Translations under genes and position numbers: made by a program
The notes under the pieces: generated by a model
The model's input: the letters and a program-made list of their open reading frames with translations, nothing else
Databases searched by the model: none
Told to the model about the DNA's origin: nothing
NCBI RefSeq assembly: GCF_000375345.1
Contig: NZ_AQXD01000001.1
Span: 182,807 to 246,806, forward strand
Direction: 5' to 3'
Length of the DNA stretch: 64,000 nucleotides
DNA from: Wohlfahrtiimonas chitiniclastica DSM 18708
GTDB taxonomy: Bacteria > Pseudomonadota > Gammaproteobacteria > Cardiobacteriales > Wohlfahrtiimonadaceae
Part shown: positions 49,433 to 57,282 of the stretch, in pieces
Numbering within the stretch: position 1 is the stretch's first letter
Layout of the letters: every line of letters begins with the position of its first letter

Positions 49433-49434
49433 GT

Positions 49435-49477
49435 CAAAGTTATCCTAGGTTATCCACATCTTCTGTGGATAACTTTG
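49435..49477. promoter_or_regulatory. Nested inverted DnaA boxes upstream of the division cluster
   Basis: Two perfect DnaA boxes face each other: TTATCCACA (49450-49458) and TGTGGATAA (49464-49472), inside a 10-bp inverted repeat with a 5-base spacer. A further outer pair, CAAAGTTATCC (49435-49445) and GGATAACTTTG (49467-49477), adds a partial third box (TTATCC at 49440). No T-tract follows, so a terminator role is less likely. Probable DnaA binding cluster; whether it regulates transcription or titrates DnaA is unknown. Confidence 0.75.
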
Positions 49478-49501
49478 TGAAAAACTCATGAAATTCCCCT
49501 C

Positions 49502-49528
49502 AAAACCCCATGCAATATTGGGGTTTTT
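49502..49528 (+). terminator. Intrinsic terminator
   Basis: 9-bp stem AAAACCCCA/TGGGGTTTT with an 8-base loop; T-tract follows. Ends the permease-DUF1622 transcript and separates it from the division cluster. Confidence 0.85.
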
Positions 49529-49651
49529 GGGTATGGTTTTTAAAAAAATAATTTAAATTCAAAGAGATGAATGTAATGGCATTGCAGCTGCATGGAATGT
49601 GGCGTTGTGCACAAATGAGGTGCGCAATAATGATGCAGCCAAGGCGGCGCT

Positions 49652-49709
49652 TGGAAATAAGAGTGGAAATAAGAGTGGAAAAAAGTGGGGAAAAGTGGTA
49701 AAAGTATGG
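49652..49709 (+). promoter_or_regulatory. MraZ-box-like tandem TGG repeats before rsmH
   Basis: Six TGG elements start at 49652, 49664, 49676, 49686, 49696 and 49707. The first units are 12-bp repeats of TGGAAATAAGAG, the later ones 10-bp units (GTGGAAAAAA, GTGGGGAAAA, GTGGTAAAAG). MraZ represses the division cluster in other bacteria by binding direct TGGG-type repeats with 10-bp spacing just upstream of mraZ, so position and periodicity fit. No mraZ gene lies between here and rsmH. Confidence 0.6.
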
Positions 49710-49738
49710 CATAAAACTATATTTGGATCGATTTTTTC

Positions 49739-50665
49739 ATGTCAGAGTTTCAGCACGTTTCCGTTCTTTTAAATGAGGCGATTAATGCGCTCAATATTCA
49801 ACCTGCCGGCGTCTACGTGGATGGGACATTTGGCCGCGGCGGTCATTCCTCTGAAATCCTAAAACGATTGACAGCAGGACACTTAATCAGCATTGATCGC
49901 GACCCAACGGCGCAAGCCTGTGCCAAAGAGCGTTTTAAAGGGGCTGAAAATTTCACATTTTTTGCCGGCTGCATGAGTGATATTAAAGCGGCGGTGGCTT
50001 CTGCACATTTTGAAAAAGTCGATGGTGTATTGTTAGACATTGGTGTGTCATCACCTCAATTAGATGATGCAGAACGTGGCTTTAGCTTTATGAAAGATGG
50101 CCCGCTTGACATGCGCATGGACCCAACCTCTGGCATCAGTGCAGCGACATGGGTGGCAACGAGTGATTTTGCCACGATGGCCAGCGTCTTTCGTGAATTT
50201 GGGGAAGAGCGTTTTGCGGGTAAAATTGCCGGTCACATCATTAAATGCCGCGAGCTTGCCCCGATTGAAACCACTCATCAATTGGCAGAGATCATCTCAG
50301 AAGCGGTGCCTTTTAAAGATAAACATAAACACCCGGCAACACGTGTGTTTCAAGCCATTCGCATTGCCGTCAATGAAGAGCTGACGGAGCTGAGCCAAAC
50401 CTTAAATGCCGCCTATGATTTATTAAATCCTGGGGGTCGTTTAGTGGTGATCAGCTTCCACTCATTAGAGGATCGCATCGTGAAAAACTTCATGAATCAC
50501 CATGCGAAACCGAAAGATTTATTGCCAGATTTACCTGTGGCGCAGTTTGTGTCTGAGCCCACACTTAAATTGATCGGCAAACCTGTGAAAGCGAGCGATG
50601 AAGAGTCGCGTCATAATCCTCGGGCCAGAAGTGCCATCATGCGTATAGCGGAGAAATTACCGTGA
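49739..50665 (+). CDS. rsmH: 16S rRNA (cytosine(1402)-N(4))-methyltransferase
   Basis: 308-residue MraW/RsmH, which methylates C1402 in the ribosomal P site using S-adenosylmethionine. Motifs: HVSVLLNEAI, DGTFGRGGHS (SAM-binding), LDIGVSSPQLDDAERGFSF and HSLEDRIVK. First gene of the division/cell wall cluster in this genome; mraZ, which normally precedes it, is absent. The stop overlaps the GTG start of ftsL. Confidence 0.97.
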   Translation: MSEFQHVSVLLNEAINALNIQPAGVYVDGTFGRGGHSSEILKRLTAGHLISIDRDPTAQACAKERFKGAENFTFFAGCMSDIKAAVASAHFEKVDGVLLDIGVSSPQLDDAERGFSFMKDGPLDMRMDPTSGISAATWVATSDFATMASVFREFGEERFAGKIAGHIIKCRELAPIETTHQLAEIISEAVPFKDKHKHPATRVFQAIRIAVNEELTELSQTLNAAYDLLNPGGRLVVISFHSLEDRIVKNFMNHHAKPKDLLPDLPVAQFVSEPTLKLIGKPVKASDEESRHNPRARSAIMRIAEKLP

Positions 50666-50985
50666 ATATCACAAAAAGTTTGGTGATTTTGTGTGGTTTA
50701 GCGCTCATTGCTGTGGGAATGTTAAAAATTCACACCACACAAGAGCATCGTCATTTATGGCATCAGTACGAAAAAGCACTGACGCAAAAAATGGACTACG
50801 ATACAGAGTGGAACAAACTCAAGTTAGAAGAGAGCATGTTGATCACAGCGGTGTTGATGGACAAAACGATCCGTGATCGCTTGAACATGGTATTACCTAA
50901 ACAAGAGAGCATCGTCTATGTGACAGAGAAAAAGACTGCAACATTGGTGAGTGCTCAAAATGATAAAGATCGTTACATTCAATAA
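50662..50985 (+). CDS. ftsL: Cell division protein FtsL
   Basis: 107-residue bitopic protein: short cytoplasmic start, one transmembrane helix (LVILCGLALIAVGMLKI), then a periplasmic coiled coil (EHRHLWHQYEKALTQKMDYDTEWNKLKLEE). Works with FtsB and FtsQ in the divisome to activate FtsW-FtsI. Identified by size, topology and position between rsmH and ftsI, since FtsL sequences diverge strongly. GTG start inside the rsmH stop. Confidence 0.9.
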   Translation: MNITKSLVILCGLALIAVGMLKIHTTQEHRHLWHQYEKALTQKMDYDTEWNKLKLEESMLITAVLMDKTIRDRLNMVLPKQESIVYVTEKKTATLVSAQNDKDRYIQ

Positions 50986-50988
50986 TTC

Positions 50989-52743
50989 ATGATGCGTCAA
51001 ACTCCAAAGAAGCGTCGCTCGAAAAAGGCGAAAAGCAAACGACCAGTGTTGCCCGGTCAAAATTACCGTCGCATGTTTGTGCTCGGTATTTTTTATCTTT
51101 TAGCCGTTGCATTGATGATCAGTGCCTTTGATTTACAGATTCTCAATCAGCAATTTTTGCAATCAGAGAGCAACAACCGTGTTTTACGCACACAAAACAT
51201 TCCTGCGGTGAGAGGGGCAATCATGGATCGCAACCATGAGTCTTTGGCCATCTCGACGGAAGTTTATTCCATTTGGGCGGACCCTAAAATTTTATTGCCT
51301 TATGCCGAGTATTTGCCAGATTTAGCCAAAGCCCTCGACATGAAGGAAAAGCATCTGTATGAGTTGTTGACCAAGCGTGACAATTCTCGCTTTGTGTGGT
51401 TAAAGCGCCAATTGCCGCCCCATGCAACGAATGATGTGGTCAAACTGAATTTACCGGGCGTGACCATTGAAAAAGAGTATAAGCGTTATTATCCGGATGC
51501 GGAAGTGACCGCCCAGCTCCTTGGCTTTACGAACTCAGAAGATGTGGGCATCGAGGGAATTGAGCTGACGTTTGAGGATCACCTCAAAGGTAAAATGGGT
51601 AAAAAACAGGTGGTGAAAGATTCGGCCAATCGCATCATTGATCAATTTAAATTGATTGAAGGGGCAGAATCCGGTAAAAACTTAGTGCTCACCATTGATC
51701 GACGCATTCAATTGGCGGCCTATCAAGCCCTTAAAAATGCCATCATTGAGCATAAAGCAAAAAGTGGTACTGCGATGGTGGTGGACGCTTGGACGGGCGA
51801 AGTGCTCGCATTGGTCAGTCAGCCTTCTGGCAATCCGAATAATTTACAGCACCGCATTCCTGAAATGATGAAAAACCGCGCCATTGCCGATGTGTATGAG
51901 CCAGGTTCCACCATTAAACCTTTTGTGATTGCCCTTGGCCTTGAGTCTAAAAAATGGCGCCCCACAAGCGTGGTACCAACGGGTTATCAATTCATGGTGA
52001 GCGGCAATGCCATCAAAGACGTGTCTAAATCAGAATCCATGGATTTGATCACCGTATTGGTGAAGTCGAGTAACATTGGTGTGGCGCGTGTGGCGCTTTC
52101 AATGCCGCCAGAGGTTTTATGGAATTTATATAAATCTTTAGGCATTGGGCATAAAACGGGCTTAGGGATCGTCGGTGAGCAAGCCGGTCACTTAGGCAAT
52201 GTACGCCCTTGGCAGCGCAATCAGTTTGAACATGCCACCAAATCCTTTGGTTATGGCATCAGCCTAAATACGGCGCAATTGGCGCAGATGTACTCTGTGT
52301 TTGCCAATGGTGGCGTTTATGAGCCTTTAAAAATTGTCAAAGATTTACCCCCTCAGACAGATCAACAGCGCCGCCGCATTTTCTCTAAACCTGTGGCGGC
52401 CTCCATGGTGGGCATGCTTGAGAAAGTGATCACCAATAACCCCACCTCTAAAGCGAAAGTGCCGCATTATCGCGTGGCCGGTAAATCGGGCACCGCACGT
52501 AAAATTGAAAAAGGACGCTATAGTAATACCAAGCACCGTGCATTTTTTGCCGGCTTTGGCCCAATCTCTAACCCTCGTTATGTGGTGGTGGTGATGATTG
52601 ATGAGCCTTCCGCGGGTCAATATTATGGTGGTGCTGTGGCAGCGCCGGTATTCTCTGAAATTATGGGTGATACACTGCGCATTTTGAATGTCAAACCCGA
52701 TGGTTTAGCGGAGTTACCTAAACTACAAATGTTATCCCACTGA
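50989..52743 (+). CDS. ftsI: Peptidoglycan D,D-transpeptidase FtsI (PBP3)
   Basis: 584-residue class B penicillin-binding protein that cross-links septal peptidoglycan. Basic cytoplasmic start (KKRRSKKAKSKR), one transmembrane helix (about 30-48), pedestal domain with RGAIMDRN, and transpeptidase domain with SxxK (STIK, Ser307), SSN (VKSSNIG) and KSGT (GKSGTA). Starts 3 bases after ftsL. Confidence 0.97.
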   Translation: MMRQTPKKRRSKKAKSKRPVLPGQNYRRMFVLGIFYLLAVALMISAFDLQILNQQFLQSESNNRVLRTQNIPAVRGAIMDRNHESLAISTEVYSIWADPKILLPYAEYLPDLAKALDMKEKHLYELLTKRDNSRFVWLKRQLPPHATNDVVKLNLPGVTIEKEYKRYYPDAEVTAQLLGFTNSEDVGIEGIELTFEDHLKGKMGKKQVVKDSANRIIDQFKLIEGAESGKNLVLTIDRRIQLAAYQALKNAIIEHKAKSGTAMVVDAWTGEVLALVSQPSGNPNNLQHRIPEMMKNRAIADVYEPGSTIKPFVIALGLESKKWRPTSVVPTGYQFMVSGNAIKDVSKSESMDLITVLVKSSNIGVARVALSMPPEVLWNLYKSLGIGHKTGLGIVGEQAGHLGNVRPWQRNQFEHATKSFGYGISLNTAQLAQMYSVFANGGVYEPLKIVKDLPPQTDQQRRRIFSKPVAASMVGMLEKVITNNPTSKAKVPHYRVAGKSGTARKIEKGRYSNTKHRAFFAGFGPISNPRYVVVVMIDEPSAGQYYGGAVAAPVFSEIMGDTLRILNVKPDGLAELPKLQMLSH

Positions 52744-52756
52744 TAAGGAAAACCCC

Positions 52757-54241
52757 ATGAAACTTTTACACTTATTTCCAACGCTTGAACTGCCCATTTC
52801 GTTGCAAGAAGTGACGGTCTCGGGGTTGTCGTCAGACAGTCGCTATGCTAAGCAGGGTGATCTGTTTTTTGCATTGCAAGGGGCAAACGGTCACGGTTTA
52901 GATTATATCGATGGATTACGTAAAACGGGCATTGCCGCCATTTTTTATGAGGGTGAGCCGGGCAATGTGCCCTCCGACATTCCTGCATTTAAAGTGGCAG
53001 ACATTCATGCACTCATGAAAGAAGCTGCGGTGATGTTTTATCAAGCGGCACTTAAAAAAACCAACATCATAGGCATCACAGGGACGGAAGGCAAAACCTC
53101 TGTGGCGATGTTTACAGCCGTTGCCCTACAAAAGTTAGGCAGAGCGGTGGGCATGATTGGGACGAATGGCATTGGTCCATTAGATAACCTTAAAGAAAAC
53201 ACTCACACCACGCCGGATTTTTTAGCACTCTATCGCTCCATTGATGAGATTGTGGCAGCATTTGAAACTGCTGAATCTGTGGACATTGTCTTAGAAGTCA
53301 CCTCTCATGCCCTTGATCAAGGGCGCGTGGCCGGTTTATCTTTTGCGGTCTCCACCTTTTTGAACCTTGCCCGTGATCACTTAGATTACCATGAAACCGT
53401 GGCCAATTATCGCGCCGCGAAAGAGCGCTTATTTAATGAGTATGCCTCGACCGCCTCAGTGTTGAACATCGATGATGTTGTTGGATATGATTTATTTAAG
53501 GCTTTACAAGCAAAAGGTGAGCGCGCTTTATATCCTTTTGGGGAGCAGGCATGTGAGCATGAGAATGATTTACGCATTTCAGAGATTGATCTTCATGCCC
53601 AAGGCTTACGTTTCACATTGACGCATCAAGGGCAATCTTATGCCATTGAGAGCCCATTGTATGGCCATTTCAATGCCCATAATTTAGTGGCGATGGTGGG
53701 CAATTTATTGGCCCTTGGCATTGAGATGCTGCGCATCATTGACTTACTGCCTGAAATCACTTTGGTCAAAGGGCGTATGGAAGCGATCTTTTTAGACAAT
53801 GGTGCCGTAGCGGTGATTGATTATGCCCATAAGCCTAATGCCTTATTGCAAGTGTTAAAAGCCTTGAAAAAACACATTCCAAATGGCGATTTATACTGTA
53901 TTTTTGGTTGTGGCGGGGATCGTGATCGCGGCAAACGTCCATTGATGGCGGAGATTGCCGAAGCCCATGCGGATCATGTGATTGTGACCAATGATAACCC
54001 ACGCACGGAAAATGATCTTGCCATCAGCGATGAGATTTTTACAGGCTTTAAAGCGCCAGAAAAAGTTCAGCGCATTTTAGATCGCAAATTGGCCATTGAA
54101 CATGCTGTGAGTGTGGCCAAAGCCGGGGACATTATCTTAATTGCGGGTAAAGGGCATGAAGATTATCAAATCATTGGCCACACCAAACACCATTTTTCCG
54201 ATGCTGAAATTGTTGCAGCATTCATTACACAGGATCGTTGA
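52757..54241 (+). CDS. murE: UDP-MurNAc-tripeptide synthetase (meso-DAP adding)
   Basis: 494-residue Mur ligase adding meso-diaminopimelate to UDP-MurNAc-L-Ala-D-Glu. ATP-binding loop GITGTEGKTSVAM; the loop has Glu where most MurE have Asn (GTNGKT). Central motif LEVTSHALDQGRV, and NDNPRTEND with the DNPR signature that selects meso-DAP over lysine. This supports a Gram-negative cell wall type. 13 bases after ftsI. Confidence 0.96.
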   Translation: MKLLHLFPTLELPISLQEVTVSGLSSDSRYAKQGDLFFALQGANGHGLDYIDGLRKTGIAAIFYEGEPGNVPSDIPAFKVADIHALMKEAAVMFYQAALKKTNIIGITGTEGKTSVAMFTAVALQKLGRAVGMIGTNGIGPLDNLKENTHTTPDFLALYRSIDEIVAAFETAESVDIVLEVTSHALDQGRVAGLSFAVSTFLNLARDHLDYHETVANYRAAKERLFNEYASTASVLNIDDVVGYDLFKALQAKGERALYPFGEQACEHENDLRISEIDLHAQGLRFTLTHQGQSYAIESPLYGHFNAHNLVAMVGNLLALGIEMLRIIDLLPEITLVKGRMEAIFLDNGAVAVIDYAHKPNALLQVLKALKKHIPNGDLYCIFGCGGDRDRGKRPLMAEIAEAHADHVIVTNDNPRTENDLAISDEIFTGFKAPEKVQRILDRKLAIEHAVSVAKAGDIILIAGKGHEDYQIIGHTKHHFSDAEIVAAFITQDR

Positions 54242-54247
54242 TATTGT

Positions 54248-55597
54248 ATGAAACTTTCACAAGCAGCCCAAATCCTACAAGGTGAGCTCAAAGGCATGGA
54301 TGCCATTTTTTATGGTGCCTCTACAGATACGCGCTTGATTCAAGCCGGCCAGCTCTTTTTTGCATGGAAAGGCGATAAGCACGATGCTCATAATTTTTTA
54401 GACAGCATTGAGGCAAAAGGTGCCATTGGTGCGGTGGTTGAGCGTTATACGCCATCTGTGAACATCAGCCAAATTGTGGTCAAAGACAGCCAAAAGGCGC
54501 TTGGCATATTGGCAAAGGCATGGATGGCCGATTGGCAGGGCACAACGGTTGCATTGACGGGGTCAAATGGCAAAACCACATTAAAAGAGATGATTGCCTC
54601 CATTTTGCGTGGCAAAGGGGCAACGCTGGCCACAGAGGGCAACTATAACAATCATGTGGGTTGCCCATTGACGATTTTAAAGCTCACCGATCAGTATGAA
54701 TATGCCGTGTTAGAAATGGGGGCGAATCACTTTGATGAGATTCGTTATTTAACTCATATTGCGTGTCCAGATGTGGCGATTTTGAACAATGCAGGACCTT
54801 GCCATTTAGAAGGTTTTGGCAGCATTGAAGGTGTTGCGCGCGCTAAAGGTGAAATCTTTGAAGGCTTAAAAGCGGGTGGAACAGCGATCATCAATGCCGA
54901 TGATGATTATGCAGACTATTGGCAGAGCCTGAATACAGAACATCGCGTCTTAACGTTTGGCATTCGTAACACTGCCGATGTGATGGCAAAAAACATCAGT
55001 GGTCAATCATTTGACTTGGTGATTCATGGGCAATCTATCCGTGTGACGTTGGCATTAGTGGGCATTCACAATATCTTAAATGCCTGTGCAGCGGCGGCCG
55101 CTACGTATGCTTTAGGCGCCTCTTTAGATGAAATTAAAACAGGGCTTGAAAATCTGCACTGCGTCAAAGGGCGTTTAGAGAAGATTCAATTGAGCGATCA
55201 TCACATTTTGCTCAATGATGCTTATAACGGCAATCCTGCCTCTTTGCGCGCAGGGATTGACGCATTAGAAGGCATTGCCGATCACACCTGGCTTGTGTTA
55301 GGAGACATGCGTGAATTGGGCACACAAGCGGTGCAAATGCATGAAGAGTGCGGGCGTTATGCAAAAGTGCGCGGCTTTGATCAGCTTTTGGCCTTAGGTG
55401 AGATGTCCGCAAAAAGTGCTGAGGCCTTTGGTGAAGGCGGGCAAGTGTATGCAGATCACGATGCCATCATTGACCACATCAACCAAACATTGGCCACACT
55501 TAAAGATGAATCGGTTGCCATTTTGGTGAAGGGTTCAAACTCCATGAAAATGTATTTAATTGCCGAGGCGATGGTTCAAAAAGAGAAGGAAGCTTAA
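54248..55597 (+). CDS. murF: UDP-MurNAc-tripeptide D-alanyl-D-alanine ligase
   Basis: 449-residue Mur ligase that adds D-Ala-D-Ala to complete the UDP-MurNAc pentapeptide. ATP-binding loop ALTGSNGKTTLKEM near residue 105, YNNHVGCPLTIL, and DAYNGNPASLRAG in the C-terminal domain. Stop codon directly followed by the mraY ATG. Confidence 0.97.
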   Translation: MKLSQAAQILQGELKGMDAIFYGASTDTRLIQAGQLFFAWKGDKHDAHNFLDSIEAKGAIGAVVERYTPSVNISQIVVKDSQKALGILAKAWMADWQGTTVALTGSNGKTTLKEMIASILRGKGATLATEGNYNNHVGCPLTILKLTDQYEYAVLEMGANHFDEIRYLTHIACPDVAILNNAGPCHLEGFGSIEGVARAKGEIFEGLKAGGTAIINADDDYADYWQSLNTEHRVLTFGIRNTADVMAKNISGQSFDLVIHGQSIRVTLALVGIHNILNACAAAAATYALGASLDEIKTGLENLHCVKGRLEKIQLSDHHILLNDAYNGNPASLRAGIDALEGIADHTWLVLGDMRELGTQAVQMHEECGRYAKVRGFDQLLALGEMSAKSAEAFGEGGQVYADHDAIIDHINQTLATLKDESVAILVKGSNSMKMYLIAEAMVQKEKEA

Positions 55598-56680
55598 ATG
55601 TTATATGCGTTACTCACATACTTAGCGGAGCATCAATGGGGTGCTTTGCGAGTGTTTCAATATTTATCGATGCGTGGCATCTGTGCGGTTTTGACGGCGC
55701 TGGTGTTTGCGCTCTTTTTTGGCCCGAAATTCATTCGTAAATTGCAGGCCAATCAAATTGGGCAATTTGTGCGTGACGATGGTCCGCAATCCCATTTATC
55801 CAAAAAAGGGACGCCAACGATGGGCGGCGTGCTCATCATTGCGAGCATTTCTGTGGCGGTGTTGTTGTGGGCTGATTTAAGCAACATCAATGTTTGGGTG
55901 GTGATGGGCGTGTTATGGGGCTTTGGTTATGTGGGCTTTATTGATGACTATCGCAAAGTGGTTAAAAAGCAATCCCTTGGGCTGCGCGCTAAAGAAAAGT
56001 ATCTCTATTTAACCATTGGCGGATTATTGGCTGCGGTGATTTTGTATTACAATGCAGGCGATCAGGGCACGCAACTTCTCATTCCATATTTTAAAGAGTG
56101 GTACATTCCTTTAGGCATTTTCTTCATTCCGTTTGTCTATTTTGTGATTGTGGGCGCAAGTAATGCTGTGAATTTAACCGATGGTTTAGATGGTTTGGCC
56201 ATCATGCCCACCATTTTAATTGCTGCTGCGCTTGCCATTTTTGCTTATGCCACAGGGCACGTGGAATTTGCCAACTATTTAGCCATTCCATATGTGCAAG
56301 GCGCAGGCGAAATGGCCATCATTTGTGCCGCAATCTTTGGCGCAGGTTTAGGCTTTTTATGGTTCAATACTTATCCTGCACAAGTCTTTATGGGCGATGT
56401 CGGTGCTTTAGCATTAGGTGGCGCATTGGGTGCGATCTCTGTGGTGGTGCGCCAAGAGCTTGTTTTCTTCATCATGAGTGGTTTATTTGTGGTGGAAACA
56501 CTCTCTGTGTTCATTCAAGTGGGTTCATACCGCATGTTTAAAAAGCGCGTGTTTAGAATGGCGCCGATTCATCATCACTTTGAGCTGAAAGGTTGGCCTG
56601 AGCCACGCGTGATTGTACGCTTTTGGATTTTGACGGTGATCTTGGTCTTAATCGGTTTAGCCTCCCTTAAAATTCGTTAA
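55598..56680 (+). CDS. mraY: Phospho-N-acetylmuramoyl-pentapeptide-transferase
   Basis: 360-residue ten-helix membrane enzyme that transfers phospho-MurNAc-pentapeptide to undecaprenyl phosphate, forming lipid I. Signature [15 protein letters not shown] (catalytic Asp pair), [22 protein letters not shown] and [13 protein letters not shown] are all present. Last wall gene of the cluster here; murD, ftsW and murG, which normally follow, are not next to it. Confidence 0.98.
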
Positions 56681-56682
56681 TC

Positions 56683-57282
56683 ATGACTGAAACCTACTTT
56701 GAAATTGCGGCGAATGTGCACTCAGAATTTACTGAACAAAAGAGTAAATTTCTGGGCTTTGCCCATCGCGTGCAATCTGAAGAGGAAATTAAAGCCATCA
56801 TTGCAGATTTACGGGCAATGCATCCAAATGCCAATCATGTTTGCTATGCCTATCGGCTTGGCAAACATTATGAATTGTATCGCTTTAGTGATGATGGTGA
56901 GCCCGGTGGCACAGCAGGGCGCCCAATCTTTGGGCAGATTGAAGCGTTTAAAGTCACCAATATTTTGGTGGCAGTTGTGCGTTATTTTGGCGGCATTAAG
57001 CTTGGCACCGGCGGGCTTGTGGCGAACTATCAGAAGTCTGCACGCCTAACATTAGACGCAGCTCAAGTTATCGAGCATAAAATTTTACAATCCCTACAGT
57101 TCGTTTATGATTATGATGTAACCAGTGATATTCAACAACTGTTACATGTGTCAAAAGCGGTGGTGGAAGCCACGGATTATGCAGAGCGTTGTGTGTGTAC
57201 GGTTTCGCTTGAGCCATCACAGATCGACGATTTTAAACATAAATTGATGCAAATAAAAAACACGCAGTTACTCAGTCCTTAA
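56683..57282 (+). CDS. IMPACT/YigZ family protein
   Basis: 199-residue YigZ/UPF0029 protein. N-terminal Impact domain with KSKFLGFAHRV, YRFSDDGEPGGTAGRPIFGQ and VRYFGGIKLGTGGLVANY, then a small C-terminal ferredoxin-like domain (DUF1949). Relatives of the yeast IMPACT protein, which affects translation control; bacterial function unknown. It begins 2 bases after mraY and so is cotranscribed with the wall genes, in the place murD usually holds. Confidence 0.94.
   Translation: MTETYFEIAANVHSEFTEQKSKFLGFAHRVQSEEEIKAIIADLRAMHPNANHVCYAYRLGKHYELYRFSDDGEPGGTAGRPIFGQIEAFKVTNILVAVVRYFGGIKLGTGGLVANYQKSARLTLDAAQVIEHKILQSLQFVYDYDVTSDIQQLLHVSKAVVEATDYAERCVCTVSLEPSQIDDFKHKLMQIKNTQLLSP

Follow-up and report, generated by a model that had tools for sequence, protein, structure and literature searches.

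MraZ-type boxes in front of rsmH and a distant, Bacteroidota-like mraZ in Wohlfahrtiimonas chitiniclastica and its family

Introduction

MraZ is a very widespread bacterial regulator, and its gene heading the dcw (division) cluster beside rsmH is the usual, though not strictly defining, arrangement. The window analyzed here, the whole stretch of 64,000 nucleotides from W. chitiniclastica DSM 18708 (contig NZ_AQXD01000001.1), raises the question of what reads a row of MraZ-box-like repeats that stands directly in front of rsmH at a locus without mraZ. A sequence-only reading of this DNA had offered two answers, either that mraZ was lost or moved while its operator persisted or that another regulator uses the boxes. 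We have followed both through the window genome, the genomes of the family and a wider set of bacteria.

The operator array and the division cluster

The interval from 49433 to 49738 lies between the end of the upstream gene (49432; presumably a DUF1622 gene, the label given in the sequence-only reading) and the start of rsmH (49739), and it contains no mraZ. TGG units are found at 49652, 49664, 49676, 49686, 49696 and 49707, with spacings of 12, 12, 10, 10 and 11 bp, and eight further TGG are scattered through the interval. The run of six TGG at 10 to 12 bp before rsmH, as originally described, is confirmed, with only 1 of 20,000 dinucleotide shuffles of the interval giving such a run, while an [AG]TGG triple at 10-bp spacing appeared in 22 of 20,000. 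The core of the array is formed by three GTGG boxes with 10-bp spacing (49675 to 49698, plus strand), so that this site has what is expected of a MraZ-box operator, at least three GTG-containing boxes with that spacing before a dcw cluster. The likeness to a MraZ operator holds in both form and place, and the 10-bp core is kept in 17/17 family genomes with rsmH.

The outer units appear to have another history. The two 12-bp units (TGGAAATAAGAG, 49652 to 49675, plus strand) lie 5' of the core; by eye, there are two copies in the window genome and one in the nearest species (G002), while the four remaining genus members lack a TGG-bearing copy, which indicates a local, lineage-specific duplication. 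The last TGG of the run (49707 to 49709, plus strand) is 11 bp past the third core box, within an ATGG present at this position only in the window genome (G000) and G002. The earlier ideas that the two spacings mark different binding modes or a decaying array are not supported, as the core is intact in all 17 relatives with rsmH and the 12-bp units are a duplication. A hexamer TATATT (49718 to 49723, plus strand), 19 bp after the third box, is predicted to be the -10 element; if this prediction is correct, the third box would occupy the -35 position.

Two other elements are found in the same gap. There is an inverted repeat at 49440 to 49472 with two perfect 9-mers (TTATCCACA at 49450 and TGTGGATAA at 49464), which we take to be DnaA boxes. 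Both 9-mers recur in G002 and one of them in G003, and neither was found in the other 14 of the 17 family genomes scanned over 700 bp upstream. A terminator-like hairpin with a T run (49495 to 49540, CCCCATGCAATATTGGGG, by eye) is probably the end of the upstream genes.

Downstream of the operator, rsmH (mraW; 49739 to 50665, plus strand) is the first division-cluster gene in the window, followed on the same strand by a small ftsL-like ORF, named by position (50662 to 50985), and by ORFs that, by sequence and order, we take to be ftsI, murE, murF and mraY-like genes (50989 to 56680), presumed to be co-regulated. The cluster seems to stop after mraY (55598 to 57282), where the next gene presumably codes for a YigZ/IMPACT-type protein.

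Conservation of the boxes in the family

We compared 18 genomes of the family Ignatzschineriaceae in the NCBI sense (Wohlfahrtiimonas, Ignatzschineria and kin), with four genus codes. The pattern RTGG-N6-RTGG-N6-RTGG gave 37 matches in these genomes, 17 of them immediately in front of rsmH, a single one per genome in the 17 where rsmH was hit; the remaining genome (G016) had neither an rsmH hit nor a triple-box match. The other 20 matches are at the background level, as the reversed control pattern gave 22. Since the triple box precedes rsmH in 17/17 while the other matches are close to background, the array is real and conserved, and its origin by chance is rejected by the family-wide search together with the shuffles. 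The sequence flanking the boxes differs among the family genomes (by eye). The window genome has three further triple matches, with look-alikes in sister species of the genus, and a wider MraZ regulon was rejected, as no match outside rsmH recurs across the genera of the family (by eye).

The sequence-only reading suggested a comparison of relatives with and without mraZ. Thirteen Gammaproteobacteria with rsmH and without mraZ were available among the matches listed; G020 was left out, having only a partial rsmH hit, and none of the 12 tested had a triple or double RTGG within 400 bp before rsmH. These boxless genomes include G021 and G024, of the same order, although the absence of mraZ is less sure in G024, which is 93% complete. 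We inspected the mraZ upstream regions of 28 of the 33 non-family genomes that carry the gene (all but the five without a fetched mraZ locus); within 300 bp before the adjacent mraZ, the strict triple was found in only 14/28 and a double in 20/28. In the Bacteroidota-like loci described below, the 250 bp preceding mraZ contain a triple in 13/20 and at least two boxes in 19/20. Boxes thus go with a MraZ, as none remain in the mraZ-less Gammaproteobacteria tested, and the operator of the family looks like one that a MraZ still recognizes.

A shorter form was seen in order mates of a sister family (f3; L039, L041 to L043, L045, L048 to L050 and L053), which have a native mraZ. In 7 of the 9 loci read, two boxes (GTGG-N6-GTGC) directly overlap a TATAAT-type -10 (TATAATGTGGG, by eye), a reduced operator missed by the strict triple pattern.

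The relocated mraZ and its product

The genome-wide search located a single mraZ in the window genome, on another contig (G000:C5:70889-71383, minus strand) and directly followed by murI. The absence of mraZ therefore holds for the rsmH locus only. Outright loss is ruled out in the whole family, as every genome has one mraZ locus (18/18, two domain hits at one place), and another regulator of the boxes is not needed because MraZ is present in all 18. The gene adjoins murI in 17/18; in G006, the sole genome of its genus here, it lies between purT-like and xerD-like genes (L069, 3446 to 3958), which suggests repeated relocation of the gene. We assigned the names murI, purT and xerD from sequence.

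In none of the 17 family genomes with both genes placed does mraZ head the dcw cluster beside rsmH; the two genes are apart in all of them. In the other Gammaproteobacteria they adjoin each other (gap of less than 1 kb) in 108/108 cases, a set made up of the 33 non-family genomes with both hits and those of 281 genomes that were pairable among the matches listed. One metagenome-assembled genome (G005) carries both genes on a single 26-kb contig (C20; L009 and L068), with rsmH from 1028 and mraZ at about 24,000, approximately 22 kb apart, which may be a real linkage or an assembly join. No triple box was found at mraZ itself in 18/18 family genomes (pattern search, with 180 bp upstream read by eye); because no box array precedes the gene, the usual autofeedback of MraZ has presumably been lost.

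The protein itself belongs to PF02381 and TIGR00242, with two PF02381 matches over the cutoff in one protein and 117 bits against a TIGR00242 cutoff of 98.35, while five narrower MraZ models match below their cutoffs. The DxxxR loops of MraZ have a role in DNA binding, and both motifs are present in 18/18 family proteins. The AlphaFold model (pLDDT of 80) has the MraZ fold and matches 1n0e, 1n0f, 9qlg, 9r4j and 9sz7 with TM-scores by query of 0.63 to 0.74. The matched structures include MraZ bound to its promoter, 9r4j and 9sz7 being MraZ-DNA cryo-EM entries, and these two show that the Mycoplasma genitalium MraZ has the same fold.

Ancestry of the family MraZ

To place the protein, the family MraZ alignment was used to scan genome_contigs, in which each of 84,980 species is represented by a single genome. 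The scan relied on two short motifs taken from the family, so it is biased and could miss other phyla. It returned 33 loci, of which 13 belong to the family (Wohlfahrtiimonas larvae, W. populi, Ignatzschineria ureiclastica, I. cameli, the draft AwWohl and a MAG labelled Lysobacteraceae, among others). Of the 20 outside, 19 are titled Bacteroidota and one is labelled Verrucomicrobia but groups with Bacteroidota, and rsmH adjoins mraZ in all 20.

Similarity consistently links the family to this set. The family profile scores 122 to 183 bits on the Bacteroidota proteins and at most 96 on those of Pseudomonadota. A search of 199 genomes of that phylum gave no score above 89 outside the family; three loci of that search (L129, L130 and L147) repeat genomes already represented and were not taken into the protein set. 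The best Mycoplasma chain reached 81 bits with the profile. The window-genome MraZ is 37 to 52% identical to the Bacteroidota set and 29 to 39% to 46 Pseudomonadota proteins. An N terminus of the form LG[EKT][YF][ED] is found in 18/18 family proteins, 17/20 of Bacteroidota and 0/46 of Pseudomonadota.

The phylogenies point in the same direction, with different strength. In the tree of all 84 rows, the family joins Bacteroidota (100/98) with pse_G393 attached just outside, and it is nested among them at 93/73. Six long-branch rows (pse_G393, gam_G037, G046, G056, G041 and G032) were dropped from the remaining analyses. Without them, the family, Bacteroidota and Pseudomonadota form three separate groups (Bacteroidota at only 43/0), a tree that by itself does not place the family; with Mycoplasma as the outgroup, the family and Bacteroidota group at 93/95. 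AU tests rejected the union of the family with ten order mates (P = 1.3e-7), with G018 alone (1.4e-48) and with the sampled Gammaproteobacteria (2.2e-14). These results strongly point to an origin of the family MraZ outside its order and the sampled Gammaproteobacteria, and make Bacteroidota the likely, but not proven, donor phylum.

Origin of the operator and competing explanations

We think it probable that the native mraZ of the family was replaced by a horizontally acquired, Bacteroidota-like one, which would act in trans on an inherited and working operator. The native gene would have been deleted from between operator and rsmH in the family ancestor, and a Bacteroidota-like mraZ, now elsewhere and beside murI in most genomes, would have been gained by horizontal transfer. 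The foreign MraZ would then have taken over the old operator (49675 to 49698) of the rsmH-headed division cluster, with a MraZ ring binding in trans to the boxes of the rsmH promoter and the feedback on mraZ itself lost. The box form, RTGG every 10 bp, is common to both lineages, so a foreign MraZ could adopt the old site. The original proposal of a persisting operator at a locus without mraZ stands; simple loss or movement of the gene does not, given the Bacteroidota-like copy elsewhere.

Alternatively, the boxes may be as foreign as the gene: a Bacteroidota mraZ may have replaced the native one inside the cluster and brought its boxes along, with only the gene later moving to murI. We regard this as unlikely. 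In most native Gammaproteobacteria with the triple, a predicted TATAGT-like -10 is found a few bases upstream of box 1 (at 8 bp in 7/15, from overlapping to 11 bp in 7 more and unclear in one). In Wohlfahrtiimonas and Ignatzschineria, a -10-like hexamer is located 19 to 21 bp downstream of box 3 in 14/17 family genomes (by eye; not clear in G007 and G009), and box 3 is predicted to sit at -35. An automatic search of 40-bp stretches placed the best hexamer at that distance in 6/17 and otherwise often picked other AT-rich hexamers. As the predicted promoter of most of the family lies downstream of the boxes, unlike that of typical Gammaproteobacteria, this operator may be a remodelled or an imported one, and some family arrays do resemble Bacteroidota ones (GTGGTAAAAAGTGG in G001 and G005). 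In G006, however, a TTGACG-17 bp-TATAGT sequence runs into box 1, as in the Gammaproteobacteria G048 and G056; this arrangement favors an inherited operator whose promoter changed later in the other genera. The spacers of the boxes do not separate native from Bacteroidota arrays either (by eye), and family rsmH appears nearer to Gammaproteobacteria than to the Bacteroidota loci (42 to 55% identity to the non-family genomes compared and 37 to 46%, respectively, with overlapping ranges). On balance, we infer a native origin for the operator.

That the boxes are a functionless relic, with the distant mraZ regulating something else, is highly improbable. The physical separation of mraZ from the boxes would fit such a relic, as would M. 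genitalium, where, according to the available part of PMC8475190, mraZ complementation worked only in cis. Against it, three boxes at fixed spacing are kept across the family while their flanks differ, the boxes are absent from the mraZ-less Gammaproteobacteria tested, no other match recurs across the genera of the family, and in Neisseria elongata an ectopic mraZ acts on the cluster (available part of PMC9395523). Still less credible is that the family MraZ is a fast-evolving, relocated vertical descendant of the gammaproteobacterial gene, for, although a single group of the family and all Pseudomonadota was not rejected with Mycoplasma as the outgroup (P = 0.32), the AU tests reject its union with order mates or sampled Gammaproteobacteria, and both the identities and the LG[EKT][YF][ED] N terminus set it with Bacteroidota. 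Replacement by a foreign MraZ is thus the reading that we retain, and MraZ binding to the rsmH boxes, with control in trans, may be expected in the family.

Comparison with known MraZ systems

The array resembles the Pmra of Escherichia coli, which also has RTGG boxes (three) at 10-bp spacing before the division cluster. Two differences are evident. The E. coli boxes are followed directly by mraZ, which here is Bacteroidota-like and located elsewhere, and the predicted -10 lies 7 bp upstream of box 1 in E. coli but downstream of the boxes here. E. coli MraZ is reported to repress its own operon (Eraso 2014, as cited in the available part of PMC8475190). The dcw operon of Burkholderia cenocepacia has the same 10-bp period, built from 7-nt repeats and 3-nt spacers, and its MraZ bound the site-bearing fragment in EMSA; it differs in having four repeats, mraZ inside the operon and, like E. 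coli, the -10 upstream of the site (available part of PMC7761207). The mraZ-rsmH clusters of Bacteroidota such as Lewinella cohaerens (L103) and Tenacibaculum holothuriorum (L109) hold the closest outside MraZ found and the same box form, but mraZ is there directly before rsmH.

The known systems also differ in the sign of control. The available text of PMC8475190 gives the Mollicutes boxes as direct repeats, AAAGTG[T/G], and describes the M. genitalium MraZ as a repressor that reportedly acts only when its gene is linked to the operator; in contrast, gene and operator lie apart in every family genome in which both are placed. N. elongata MraZ is an activator, and an ectopic copy raises expression of the cluster (available part of PMC9395523). 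We found no published report of the arrangement described here in the literature searched, which was mostly non-subscription, so this is not proof of absence.

Implications

A further step would be that placing an ortholog from a foreign phylum in a resident operator had consequences for control: feedback uncoupled, the promoter flipped so that the boxes are at -35 and not after the -10, perhaps a repressor turned into an activator, and mraZ expression tied to murI. We put this forward tentatively, as a possibility that we hold somewhat doubtful.

With its gene and operator long separated, the family represents a natural trans experiment and a possible counter-case to the cis-only complementation of M. 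genitalium. Such a swap points to a box code similar enough in different phyla that one regulator can replace another. Autoregulation, the preference for cis and the sign of control become directly testable in this family.
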